Shown one piece after another: positions 7 through 10,845 of a DNA stretch of 10,845 nucleotides (its first letter is position 1; each line of letters begins with the position of its first letter). The position numbers were made by a program, and so were the translations under genes. Under the pieces are notes generated by a model that saw only the letters and a program-made list of their open reading frames with translations, did not search any database and was not told where the DNA came from. The stretch is taken from NCBI GenBank assembly GCA_003488525.1, contig DNLG01000090.1, positions 4,688-15,532 of the forward strand, given 5' to 3'. The DNA is from Bacteroidota bacterium (GTDB taxonomy: Bacteria; Bacteroidota; Ignavibacteria; Kapaibacteriales; Kapaibacteriaceae).

Positions 7-1422
7 TCACACCCTTCTTCGAAGCACCCCCACTGCCTCTACATGGTAGGTCTGCGGGAACATATCGACCGGTGTCACGTGGGCGACATCATAGGTCGAA
101 GAGAGAATCGCACAGTCACGTGCCATCGTGCCGGGGTTACAGCTGACATACACGACCGTGGGTGCGGCAACAGCCAGGATATGACTGACCACCTGCTCGT
201 GCATACCACTGCGCGGAGGATCGACGATCACCACATCGGGCTTGGGGAAGGTTCGCAAGAGCTCCAGTGCAGCAGGACGATGCAGGTCGACGACCTGAAA
301 ATCTACATTGTCGATGCCGTTGCGTTGGGCATTTGCGCGAGCATCCAGGATGGAGCCTTCGGCAAGCTCCGCACCAACAACATGCCTGGCAAGCTTTGCC
401 GCCGGCAGCGTGAGCGTGCCGGTGCCGCAGTAAAGATCCCACACCACGGAGTCTTTGGTAATGCCGGCCCCTTCCATTGCTTTGCTGACAAGGTTAGGAA
501 GATGAGTAGTGTTGGTCTGAAAGAACGAGAACGGCGAGATGCGATAGGTGATGCCGTGACTGATCTCTTCGAGGTAGCCTGGACCATTCACCGTTGTGAT
601 CGTGCCGACGGCCACAGGAGACCATGTATCGTTGATGGCGTGGATCATCGAAGAACCGGCAGGAAGCTGAGCATGCAGTGACATCCACTCGGCTATGAAG
701 TCGTGCTCAAACTCGGCCTGCGGCGTTGTGGTGATCAGCACGGTCATCACCGCACCACTGCTGGCGCTCGTGCGCACAACAAGGCTGCGCGCAAAGCCGG
801 TATGATTGCGCTGATGGTACGGGGCTATGCCGAACTGCTCGGCGCACGAATGTGTGTGCTGAAGGATCACATCGCCGACGTTGCTCTGCAGCAGGCATGC
901 GTCAATATGTCGAACCTTGTCAAAGCGTCCCGGCACGTGCAGTCCAAGCGCAAACGAGGTCGTGAACTCCTCACCGCTGTCGATCTCCTGGCGAGTGAGC
1001 CAGCGCGAGGCACCGAATGAGAACTCCATTTTATTACGATATCGGTACTCGTTTGGCGAGGCAAGCGTCTGTGCTATCTCCCCGACAGGGATCTTGGCAA
1101 TGCGCTCAAAGGCGTCCACCACATGCTGACGCTTCCAGCGAAGCTGCTCGGCATGTTCAAGATGCTGCCAGGTGCAGCCACCGCAGACACCGAAGTGCGG
1201 ACAGGGGGCTTGGCGGCGCAGGGCCGATGGCTCGAGAACTTCCACGGTCTCGGCCAGGATGTGCCGCTTCTGACGTCCGGTGATACGAGCCCGCACACGT
1301 TCGCCGGGCAGAGCCCCTTTCACAAAATGAACGTGCCCGTCGATGCGTCCTACGGCCACACCCTCAAAGCCTAAAGCATCGATGGTGATCTCTACGTCGA
1401 CAGGAATTCGGTCCCGCTTCAT
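7..1422 (-). CDS. rlmD: 23S rRNA (uracil-5-)-methyltransferase, RlmD/RumA type (TrmA family)
   Basis: Predicted cytoplasmic SAM-dependent enzyme that methylates C5 of a uridine in 23S rRNA. The 471-residue protein has an N-terminal TRAM-like beta-barrel (about residues 5-62), then the Fe-S cysteines of the RumA group: C74, C80 and C83 in CPHFGVCGGC, with C176 as the fourth. The SAM-binding domain contains FFQTN (300-304) and DLYCGTGTLTLPAA (329-342). DPPRSGM lies at 401-407, the catalytic nucleophile is C428 in SCNPGT, and the C-terminal FPQTYHVE supplies the general-base Glu. Start is ATG at 1422-1420, stop TGA at 9-7. The gene is divergent from the amidase gene with only 35 bp between start codons. 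The family is certain. Which uridine is modified (E. coli RlmD U1939, RlmC U747, or a dual enzyme) cannot be read from sequence; the Fe-S motif and TRAM domain favour RlmD-like over TrmA. Confidence 0.93.
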   Translation of the reverse strand: MKRDRIPVDVEITIDALGFEGVAVGRIDGHVHFVKGALPGERVRARITGRQKRHILAETVEVLEPSALRRQAPCPHFGVCGGCTWQHLEHAEQLRWKRQHVVDAFERIAKIPVGEIAQTLASPNEYRYRNKMEFSFGASRWLTRQEIDSGEEFTTSFALGLHVPGRFDKVRHIDACLLQSNVGDVILQHTHSCAEQFGIAPYHQRNHTGFARSLVVRTSASSGAVMTVLITTTPQAEFEHDFIAEWMSLHAQLPAGSSMIHAINDTWSPVAVGTITTVNGPGYLEEISHGITYRISPFSFFQTNTTHLPNLVSKAMEGAGITKDSVVWDLYCGTGTLTLPAAKLARHVVGAELAEGSILDARANAQRNGIDNVDFQVVDLHRPAALELLRTFPKPDVVIVDPPRSGMHEQVVSHILAVAAPTVVYVSCNPGTMARDCAILSSTYDVAHVTPVDMFPQTYHVEAVGVLRRRV

Positions 1423-1434
1423 TGTCTGCCTGGT

Positions 1435-1442
1435 TAGTTTTG
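1435..1442 (+). promoter_or_regulatory. Candidate Bacteroidota-type -7 box for amiC-msbA
   Basis: Reads TAGTTTTG, an exact match to TAnnTTTG, ending 15 bp before the amidase ATG at 1458. If used, transcription would begin about 5-8 bp downstream, leaving a leader of roughly 10 nt or less. No convincing -33 TTG is visible 17-23 bp upstream, where sequence is constrained by the first rlmD codons. It faces the minus-strand box at 1449-1456. Confidence 0.4.
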
Positions 1443-8942: not shown

Positions 8943-9718
8943 TACTGACGCTGACGTCGGTGTTTGCGGGCTTCGAACATGACAAGGGCTGCGGCTACGG
9001 ACGCATTCAGTGATGATACCGCACCATGCATCGGGATCTGCACCACGACGTCACACAGGGCGCGCACACTGGGGTGCATACCCTCGCCTTCGCTTCCGAT
9101 CACGATGAGCGTCGGGCCACCATACACATCATCCGAGTACTCGCTCGTGGCCGGCAGCGCCGTGCCCACAACCCGCCAACCATTGGCCCTGCAGTACTTG
9201 AGGGTTTCGGAAACACGCGCCACCTTGGCAACGGGCAGTGTTTCAAGAGCACCTGCCGAAGCTTTGATGGCCGTTGGCGTAATGGGCGCGCTGAACTTCG
9301 TCGGAAGGATCATCCCGAACACACCAGCCCCTTGCGCACTGCGGGCAATGGCTCCGAGATTGTGCGGGTCCGTGATGCCGTCGAGCACCACGATCATCGG
9401 TTCGGCTTCATGGGCCATGGCCTGTGAAAGGAGATCATCCAGGCTCAGGGGCTCGCGGGCCGCCCGGAGCGCGATCACTCCCTGGGCGTCGTTCACGGCC
9501 AGACCCAGCGTGCGCTCGAGATCGTTGAACTTGCGCCGGTCCATGGTTGAGCAGATAATGTCGCGCTTGCGTGCCTCGCTACGAAGCCACTGCATGGTGG
9601 CCTCATCAATACCGTAGGCGACGAGGATCTTCTCGATCGATGTGCCGGCAGCAAATGCTTCGGCCACGGCGCGGCGTCCGACGACGTAGCTGGTCTGCGG
9701 TGTGGATGCGTCGCTCAT
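8942..9718 (-). CDS. rlmB: 23S rRNA (guanosine-2'-O-)-methyltransferase, RlmB/TrmH family (SPOUT)
   Basis: SAM-dependent 2'-O-methyltransferase; RlmB modifies G2251 in the peptidyl-transferase loop of 23S rRNA. The 258-residue protein has an N-terminal substrate-binding domain (about 10-85, opening with VVGRRAVAEAF) and a C-terminal SPOUT knot domain. SPOUT motif 1 is DPHNLGAIARSA (117-128) with the family Asn and Arg, motif 2 is VIGSEGEGM (206-214), and motif 3 is IPMHGAVSSLNASVAAAL (228-245). Length and motifs fit RlmB well; other TrmH-like targets such as tRNA Gm18 are less likely given the N-terminal domain. The ATG at 9718-9716 overlaps the kynureninase TGA as ATGA, so its translation is probably coupled to kynU. 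No Shine-Dalgarno sequence is evident. Confidence 0.93.
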   Translation of the reverse strand: MSDASTPQTSYVVGRRAVAEAFAAGTSIEKILVAYGIDEATMQWLRSEARKRDIICSTMDRRKFNDLERTLGLAVNDAQGVIALRAAREPLSLDDLLSQAMAHEAEPMIVVLDGITDPHNLGAIARSAQGAGVFGMILPTKFSAPITPTAIKASAGALETLPVAKVARVSETLKYCRANGWRVVGTALPATSEYSDDVYGGPTLIVIGSEGEGMHPSVRALCDVVVQIPMHGAVSSLNASVAAALVMFEARKHRRQRQ

Positions 9719-10845
9719 TCGTGCGCCGCCAGAATAGTGTCGAGCGTGACGGCAAGCCGAACCACGTCGGCAAAGGAGGTGTAGAGCGGAGCCGGTGCCA
9801 TGCGAATGACGCTCGGTGTGCGCCAGTCGACGATCACGCCATGCGCGATGAGCTGTTCGAAAATCTCACGGCCATGACGGTCGAAGTGAACGCTTAGCTG
9901 CGCTCCCCGACGCGTCGGATCGGTCGGTGTGATGATGCGGATCCAGTCTCGAGAGGCGATCACTTCCTGCAGCAGGCGCTCAAGAAAACCCGTTAACTGG
10001 TCACGTTTTGCTGCGATCCGATCCATTCCGGCACGCTCGAAGATCTCCAGCGACGACATCAGCACAGCAAGCGGAAGCACTTGCGCGTTGGACAGCTGCC
10101 ATCCGTCAGCACCGTGCGTTGGCACAAACGAATGGGCCATTGAGAACCGTGTTGCTTCGTCATTGCCCCACCATCCGGCAAGTCTCGGCAGATCGGCTCG
10201 GTCGGCATAACGCTCATGAACATACAGTCCGGCCACCGCACCGGGTCCGCCATTGAGATACTTGTACGAGCACCAGACGGCAAAGTCCGCATCCCAGTCG
10301 TGCAGCGACAGTTCCACATTGCCGATCGCATGGGCAAGGTCAAACCCGGCCATGGCGCCGACATCGTGTGCGGCCCTGGTAATGGCGGCGATATCAAAGT
10401 ACTGTCCCGTGTAAAAGTGGACACCGCTGAAAAGTACAAGCGCCGTTTCGTGTCCGCGTGCGGCAATCGCCTCGAGAATGTCCTCTGTGGTGAGCGTTGA
10501 AGCCCCCTCACGAGGAGCGATCTCAATCATGGACGTGGCAGGATCCAGGCCGTGCAGGCGGATCTGACTCTCAATGGCGTAGCGGTCTGAGGGGAACTCG
10601 CCCCCTGCGCAGAGGATCGCATGACGCTCTGGTGTCGGACGGTAGAAGGACGTCATCATCAGGTGAAGGTTCACCGTCAGCGTATTCATCGCCACCACCT
10701 CGTGCGGAAGTGCTCCGACGAGTCTGGCAAGGGGCTCAGCAAACCACCGATGGTAGGAGTACCACGGACGTCGTGACTGGAAGTGCCCCTCTACGCCGAA
10801 ACGTCTCCAGTCTTCGAGTTCCTCCAGCACGATCGTCTCTGCGCG
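9715..10845 (-). CDS. kynU: Kynureninase, PLP-dependent (5' end outside window)
   Basis: Hydrolyses kynurenine or 3-hydroxykynurenine to anthranilate or 3-hydroxyanthranilate plus alanine, in tryptophan breakdown or de novo NAD synthesis. 376 residues are visible and the frame is open to the window edge; kynureninases are about 410-430 residues, so some 40-50 N-terminal residues (including the usual FLGNSLG segment) lie outside. Matches to the family include ELEDWRRFGVEGHF near the edge, NTLTVNLHLMM, FPSDRYAIESQ, PREG, LFSGVHFYTGQ, and the PLP site FDLAHAIGN followed by WCSYKYLNGG. The lysine of CSYK (codon 10263-10261) is the Schiff-base residue, and the Asp and His of FDLAH contact the cofactor. 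The C-terminal IRMAPAPLYTSFADV is also conserved. The in-frame GTG at 10830 is internal, not the start. It is the first visible gene of the minus-strand block and overlaps rlmB by ATGA. Confidence 0.95.
   Translation of the reverse strand, partial: RAETIVLEELEDWRRFGVEGHFQSRRPWYSYHRWFAEPLARLVGALPHEVVAMNTLTVNLHLMMTSFYRPTPERHAILCAGGEFPSDRYAIESQIRLHGLDPATSMIEIAPREGASTLTTEDILEAIAARGHETALVLFSGVHFYTGQYFDIAAITRAAHDVGAMAGFDLAHAIGNVELSLHDWDADFAVWCSYKYLNGGPGAVAGLYVHERYADRADLPRLAGWWGNDEATRFSMAHSFVPTHGADGWQLSNAQVLPLAVLMSSLEIFERAGMDRIAAKRDQLTGFLERLLQEVIASRDWIRIITPTDPTRRGAQLSVHFDRHGREIFEQLIAHGVIVDWRTPSVIRMAPAPLYTSFADVVRLAVTLDTILAAHE

Follow-up and report, generated by a model that had tools for sequence, protein, structure and literature searches.

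ARGGGGCK, an abundant DNA word with strand-specific spacing in one family of Kapaibacterium-type bacteria

The stretch of DNA analysed here (the window: 10,845 nucleotides, positions 4,688 to 15,532 of contig DNLG01000090.1, assembly GCA_003488525.1) belongs to a bacterium of the Kapaibacteriaceae and carries nine copies of the octamer AGGGGGCT. The degenerate unit behind it, ARGGGGCK, has four main variants, this octamer among them, and is constrained at the level of DNA. Its copies alternate in orientation, and the alternation is caused by an exclusion of further copies from the same strand over about 0.5-1 kb. As judged from sequence, ARGGGGCK is most likely a genome-wide, orientation-dependent self-signal of the family, of which at least one sister genus has a diverged dialect. 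The degenerate form, the strand-specific spacing and the dialect are new relative to an initial annotation of the window, which had reported the octamer.

Abundance and the repeated unit

AGGGGGCT is expected 0.20 times in the window, and none of 200 dinucleotide shuffles reaches nine copies. Four copies lie on the + strand and five on the - strand, the outermost at 1203-1210 and 10501-10508, and 9 of the 17 G/C runs of at least 5 nucleotides fall within the word. Positions, orientations and the share of G/C runs (about half) are thus as initially annotated. The source assembly (G000; 2.38 Mb in 176 contigs, 90% complete) contains 904 copies (449 on +, 455 on -), compared with 30 (7 and 23) of the reversed word. 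In a sample of 463 kb (about 19% of the genome, partly masked as N) a second-order Markov model predicts 5.2 copies and 182 are present; under a third-order model, applied to 305 kb, the figures are 5.9 and 128. The annotated over-representation therefore extends to the whole genome.

Three further octamers are enriched in the 463 kb sample: AAGGGGCT (141 copies, 6.9 expected), AGGGGGCG (135, 7.4 expected) and AAGGGGCG (65, 9.8 expected). ANGGGGCT forms whose second base is T or C are enriched more weakly, and substitutions in the core (A, GGGG and C) stand at background level. With four main variants enriched and core substitutions at background, the unit is ARGGGGCK; the earlier description of an abundant DNA-level word stands, but the octamer is not the full unit. 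ARGGGGCK occurs 2,670 times in G000 (control 172), a density of about one per 890 bp, and 18 times in the window, 8 on + and 10 on -. In G014, of genus g5, position 8 is clearly enriched for T alone.

Constraint on DNA and conservation

The genomes compared are mostly fragmented metagenome-assembled genomes (MAGs), with genes called as longest open frames. Synonymous codons were shuffled within N-free genes in samples of G000, G006, G010 and G014. The genes contain 418, 224, 159 and 191 ARGGGGCK copies, respectively, against permuted means of 54, 28, 17 and 30, i.e. 6.5-9.3 times the expectation; the 418 copies of G000 were counted in 417 genes. Most copies are inside genes, in all frames and both senses, with a mild excess of sense (550) over antisense (441) in the four samples.

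Relatives with 89, 81 and 78% DNA identity retain ARGGGGCK at 9 of 11, 12 of 13 and 13 of 15 aligned copies, against background fractions of identical 8-mers of 0.42, 0.21 and 0.18. Ten relatives at 67-69% identity keep 24 of 96 copies, two of them 0 of 9 and 0 of 7. The 115 kb alignment of G000 with G006 (90% identity) retains 103 of 123 copies (background 0.47). By column, identity in this comparison reaches 0.96-0.98 for positions 1 and 3-8 and 0.91 for the degenerate position 2, with flanks at 0.84-0.97, mostly about 0.9: the footprint is sharp and 8 bp long. Copies with one mismatch in the core amount to 0.94-1.06 of a masked Markov expectation and to 0.61-0.74 of the codon-permuted one in the four genomes.

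Markov models, codon permutation and conservation in relatives agree that the constraint acts on DNA, as initially proposed. Counts at Markov or codon-usage level, or an enrichment local to the window, had been named as outcomes that would speak against this; neither is found. Genome-wide counts, codon permutation and the 8 bp footprint rule out a compositional or codon-usage artefact, a local artefact and a dispersed repeat. Just the enrichment of words overlapping the unit is left in favour of an artefact or repeat, which, given the permuted mean in G000, the footprint and a reversed word at background, is exceedingly improbable.

Spacing on the two strands

Spacing was analysed in samples of the same four genomes, with Escherichia coli as sole benchmark. 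Neighbouring copies have the same and opposite orientation 192 and 299 times in G000, 83 and 160 times in G006, and 71 and 128 times in G014; G010, with 74 and 95, is borderline for both alternation and evenness (about 0.06). Pooled over the samples, same-strand pairs closer than 1 kb number 344 (529 expected) and opposite-strand pairs 583 (556 expected). Observed and expected same-strand pairs are 3/26 at 0-50 bp, then 10/27, 25/54, 33/53 and, at 300-500 bp, 55/106, followed in wider bins by 105/132 and 113/131 (750-1000 bp); beyond, they equal expectation. Opposite-strand pairs under 1 kb comprise 278 convergent and 305 divergent ones, with about 278 expected of each. Convergent pairs remain near expectation at all distances and divergent pairs are in slight excess at 100-300 bp.

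When the pattern of one strand is slid against the other, alternation is unchanged (0.35, 0.05, 0.46 and 0.23 of the slides do not exceed the observed value), so that the two strands look independently tiled. Same-strand pairs are depleted to 0.54 in genes for sense copies, 0.43 in genes for antisense copies and 0.68 across genes; the exclusion is thus independent of transcription. An RNA-level role was rejected on the same grounds, the exclusion being no weaker for antisense copies despite the mild sense excess. Among 186 (G000), 251 (G006) and 300 (G014) control patterns, some of which may overlap the motif, at most 6 per set equal it on any one measure. Within the window, consecutive copies are separated by 1.8, 1.3, 1.2, 0.9, 1.3, 1.0 and 2.0 kb on the + strand and by 0.3, 1.2, 0.9, 1.8, 0.8, 1.8, 1.2, 1.2 and 0.1 kb on the - strand. 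A terminator or hairpin function was also rejected: most copies are intragenic, and convergent pairs within 40 bp number just 3, 4, 0 and 3, divergent ones 4, 4, 1 and 1 (G000, G006, G010 and G014).

Turnover between G000 and G006 leaves 103 copies in common and 20 and 26 private ones. Same-strand pairing of private copies is slightly above chance (p 0.02-0.19 at five distances, small numbers). No copy was lost among the 15 whose nearest same-strand copy is at least 2 kb away, compared with 20 of the 108 others, the copies being few.

The strand-specific exclusion suggests that the word may be read in one direction by some machine, and the spacing suggests a reader that would need one copy per strand about every 1-2 kb.

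Replication polarity and acquired DNA

In 20 stretches around the complete, single-contig chromosome of G014, 109 of 208 copies fall on the leading strand as defined by GC skew and 99 on the lagging strand, without strand bias. The first 20 stretches of G000, where GC skew is weak, give 185 of 359 leading and 174 lagging copies, likewise without bias. The argument of the initial annotation, that even orientation speaks against FtsK-orienting polar sequences (KOPS), is borne out in G014. One stretch of G014 (800,001-820,000) contains no copy in 20 kb, the mean of the 20 stretches being 10.4. Its GC content is 0.387, and by eye its predicted proteins resemble a transposase of the IS3 type, mercury-resistance proteins and products of type I restriction-modification, which suggests that the word is absent from this one acquired-looking island.

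Taxonomic distribution and a sister-genus dialect

Judged by LysS, close relatives are MAGs that carry the labels Candidatus Kapaibacterium and Ignavibacteria. AGGGGGCT was counted in 60 genomes, and only in one family does it clearly exceed the reversed control. ARGGGGCK counts per genome in the 23 family genomes are 619-3,101 in genus g1, 896-2,554 in g5, 2,064 in g2, 865 in g4 and 594 in g6; it is not enriched in g3 (173 and 287) and g7 (261), with the reversed control at 275, 411 and 201. The word is thus characteristic of one family of Kapaibacterium-type MAGs, with an uneven distribution among its members. Three g1 genomes (G003, G005 and G008) have roughly a quarter to half of the word density of other g1 genomes. 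The AddB proteins of G003 and G005 are 94% and 70% identical to that of G008 and at most 43% identical to those of the remaining genomes.

In G012 (g3), where ARGGGGCK is at chance, ANGGCGGCANGG occurs 54 times in 260 kb. Its copies in genes number 52 (24 sense, 28 antisense), compared with 6.4 after codon permutation. Position 5 of the word is C in 54 cases, T in 27, A in 14 and G in 2, and position 9 is A in 54 and G in 14. ANGGHGGCRNGG is present 134 times in the genes of G012 (22.7 after codon permutation; 308 kb). It is at chance in G000, G006, G010, G014, G024 and small samples of G017 and G008; G016 has 2 copies in 29 kb (0.5 expected). Pairs of ANGGHGGCRNGG under 1 kb in G012 comprise 18 on the same strand (32.1 expected, an estimated 2.5 standard deviations or so) and 37 on opposite strands (32.4 expected). 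ANGGHGGCRNGG resembles ANGG-GGC with one inserted base, which suggests a diverged form of the ARGGGGCK signal, presumably of common descent. No abundant word was found in 29 kb each of G017 and G016 or in 120 kb of G024; the 29 kb of G017, also of g3, show neither ARGGGGCK nor ANGGHGGCRNGG as an enriched word.

Candidate machinery

All 44 genomes searched match PF12705, the AddAB-type PD-(D/E)XK domain, which also occurs in other proteins. AddA-like proteins have high model scores and AddB-like proteins weak ones, all below equivalog cut-offs; among solved structures, AddA matches 3u44 (helicase/nuclease subunit A) best. By our reading, AddA-like proteins occur in 22 of the 23 genomes of the family, among them G012; the remaining genome, G020, has a match as well, but one no stronger than those of helicase paralogues. 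AddB-like proteins, by the same reading, occur in 22 of 23, again with G012 and missing in G006.

The PilQ model matches none of 36 genomes (7 of 14 control genomes, one over the cut-off). PilT exceeds the cut-off in none of the 36, with five weak partial matches (13 of 14 control genomes matched, five over the cut-off). Of 36 genomes, 34 have a ComEC domain; DprA is present in 22 of 23. The methyltransferase families PF01555 and PF00145 are patchy over the genomes; among the families searched, which were these two and no others, both are unmatched in the word-rich G004, G006, G007, G010, G011, G020 and G021. G006 encodes a UPF1/DNA2-like helicase preceded by a PD-(D/E)XK nuclease region (L220:5723-8536) and G008 a similar helicase (L229:5349-8111); these proteins are a possible alternative strand-reading enzyme.

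Possible functions

The reading that we favour, tentatively and at a little less than an even chance, is that ARGGGGCK is a Chi-like signal, unpolarised but dependent on direction, to which the resident AddAB nuclease responds. End processing of the AddAB kind at two-ended breaks would fit the data best. AddAB, a RecB-like helicase-nuclease, would enter at a double-strand end and degrade the DNA until, arriving from one side, it encountered the word as the single strand 5'-ARGGGGCK-3', and would then switch to making a recombinogenic 3' end. Since ends would arrive from either side, both strands would have to be tiled; if one copy within about 1 kb suffices, extra copies on the same strand would be useless and would not be kept. 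Both AddAB as the reader and the nuclease switch are proposed parts of such a system.

In its shortness, G-richness, asymmetry and mild degeneracy ARGGGGCK resembles the validated Chi of Haemophilus influenzae (PMC8022716). The same source reports a non-polarised Chi candidate in Vibrio, and states that Chi or Chi-like motifs were known for just a few bacteria. Chi sequences in general (E. coli GCTGGTGG, the degenerate form of H. influenzae, the AddAB Chi of Firmicutes) share with ARGGGGCK their abundance, their scarcity in acquired DNA and their variation between lineages, and AddAB-type genes are present here. A far-from-exhaustive look at the literature showed no Chi or Chi-like motif for this phylum, and the best-ranked text matches to AGGGGGCT held nothing that looked relevant, all of them lying inside other sequences.

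Several observations weigh against a Chi-like role. In 500 kb of E. coli, Chi is strongly strand-biased (86:24), and exclusion is not seen on the + strand, where 12 gaps are shorter than 1 kb and 13.7 are expected, so that the best-known Chi does not have the two hallmarks found here. ARGGGGCK lacks the leading-strand polarity of E. coli Chi; the Chi-like role named in the initial annotation nevertheless stays a candidate. AddA is unrecognised in G020 and AddB in G006, both word-rich and both fragmented assemblies, and the AddB-like assignments depend on weak model scores. G017 and G016 possess AddAB-type genes without ARGGGGCK enrichment or any abundant word in their 29 kb samples; the dialect of G012 removes part of this objection, as far as AddAB without a word in g3 is concerned.

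The main rival is a DNA uptake sequence with dialects, imported by a route without PilQ and PilT and spread by biased uptake and recombination (molecular drive); KOPS and methylation fit less well. Like the uptake signal sequences (USS) of Pasteurellaceae and the DNA uptake sequences (DUS) of Neisseriaceae, ARGGGGCK is conserved, occurs about once per kb with equal strands and is scarce in acquired DNA, features described for USS and DUS together with an even spacing of USS (PMC1939737, PMC7811141, PMC2397512); lineage-specific dialects are also known for uptake sequences (PMC3630211). ComEC and DprA, present in most genomes, are compatible with uptake. Riemerella is not known to have type IV pili. 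Its transformation requires ComEC, DprA and a TonB-linked outer membrane protein according to a screen (PMC8459023). The failure to match PilQ, or PilT above its cut-off, weakens the type-IV-pilus route of the uptake role suggested earlier and leaves other routes. Uptake in H. influenzae is reported to be independent of the orientation of the strongest USS (PMC1939737), and uptake indifferent to orientation should extend the exclusion across strands; it is observed on the same strand only, which such uptake would not by itself yield. ARGGGGCK also differs from USS and DUS in lacking an excess of one-mismatch copies (for the uptake sequence of Actinobacillus pleuropneumoniae, 947 against 86 expected are given, on a differently derived expectation; PMC1939737), and close inverted pairs, for which a role is printed in the case of uptake sequences, are rare here. 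We consider uptake unlikely. Somewhat less likely still is a site that loads or signals to a different strand-tracking machine (a helicase, a translocase or the nuclease-helicase fusion) unrelated to AddAB or uptake. The same-strand exclusion requires merely a directional reader, and the helicases of G006 and G008 would be of a suitable kind, but a positive link is lacking and the polarity expected for KOPS or lagging-strand priming is absent.

Very unlikely, finally, is methylation at an asymmetric site by which the two strands would be marked separately, for example to guide mismatch repair over about 1 kb; evenly spaced marks would then be required on either strand. The sharp core without a mismatch halo and a strand-by-strand tiling at roughly 1 kb scale, independent of replication polarity and transcription, would suit such a site, whereas the graded preference at positions 2 and 8 seems in our judgement unusual for a methyltransferase, and the methylation role named in the initial annotation is weakened by the seven word-rich genomes unmatched for the two families searched. 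HIP1 (GCGATCGC) of cyanobacteria is also a very abundant lineage-specific word, and was likewise offered as an analogy; it is a palindrome linked to methyltransferases (PMC4390886), whereas ARGGGGCK is asymmetric and differs from its own reverse complement, so that the analogy fails. KOPS and architecture-imparting sequences are repeated octamers as well, but ARGGGGCK has no replichore polarity.

An asymmetric word placed independently on each strand, with same-strand exclusion over about 0.5-1 kb, no replication polarity and dialects (ARGGGGCK, ARGGGGCT and ANGGHGGCRNGG) evolving in step with a directional reader that is specific to the lineage and handles ends or entry points on either side, may constitute a new kind of genome tiling, a proposal that we hold with slightly less than even confidence. 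Strand-specific exclusion offers a simple, sequence-only test for directional reading of abundant words in any genome. Two dialects that behave alike in neighbouring genera would allow the reader to be sought by gene comparison, with AddAB as the first candidate.

Copies and other repeats in the window

The copies of the window are listed below with their gene context. The copy at 2991-2998 uses the codons AGG GGG, as initially annotated.

Table 1. Copies of ARGGGGCK and of weaker variants in the window
Word	Position	Strand	Context
AGGGGGCT	1203-1210	+	antisense in rlmD
AAGGGGCT (ARGGGGCK)	1312-1319	-	sense in rlmD
AAGGGGCG (ARGGGGCK)	1645-1652	-	antisense in amidase gene
AGGGGGCT	2850-2857	-	antisense in ABC transporter gene
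AGGGGGCT	2991-2998	+	ABC transporter gene, in frame AGG GGG CT
AGGGGGCT	3760-3767	-	antisense in ABC transporter gene
AGGGGGCT	4309-4316	+	sense in ABC transporter gene
AGGGGGCT	5481-5488	+	antisense in GT39-like gene
AGGGGGCT	5533-5540	-	sense in GT39-like gene
AGGGGGCG (ARGGGGCK)	6353-6360	-	one half of a close divergent inverted pair
AAGGGGCT (ARGGGGCK)	6364-6371	+	second half of the divergent inverted pair with 6353-6360
AAGGGGCG (ARGGGGCK)	7699-7706	+	antisense in lysS
AGGGGGCT	8139-8146	-	sense in lysS
AAGGGGCT (ARGGGGCK)	8728-8735	+	antisense in lysS
AAGGGGCT (ARGGGGCK)	9326-9333	-	sense in rlmB-like gene
AGGGGGCT	10501-10508	-	sense in kynU
AGGGGGCG (ARGGGGCK)	10599-10606	-	sense in kynU
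AAGGGGCT (ARGGGGCK)	10729-10736	+	antisense in kynU
ATGGGGCT (weaker variant)	3501-3508	+	
Other ANGGGGCN variants	starts 466, 819, 1527, 2568, 7750		

Tandem arrays of 8 bp CGGAAGTA-type and 7 bp GTCACTC units follow the ABC transporter gene (4500-4635). Similar or related short-unit arrays are present in close relatives (L029, 11051-11188; L030, 70-342 and 1083-1290; L031, 1162-1190 and 17032-17110). In the G000 sample (L009-L028), GGATCC (100 copies, 230 expected), GGGCCC (42, 130 expected) and CGGATCC (28, 86 expected) are below expectation, a scarcity that suggests restriction avoidance.

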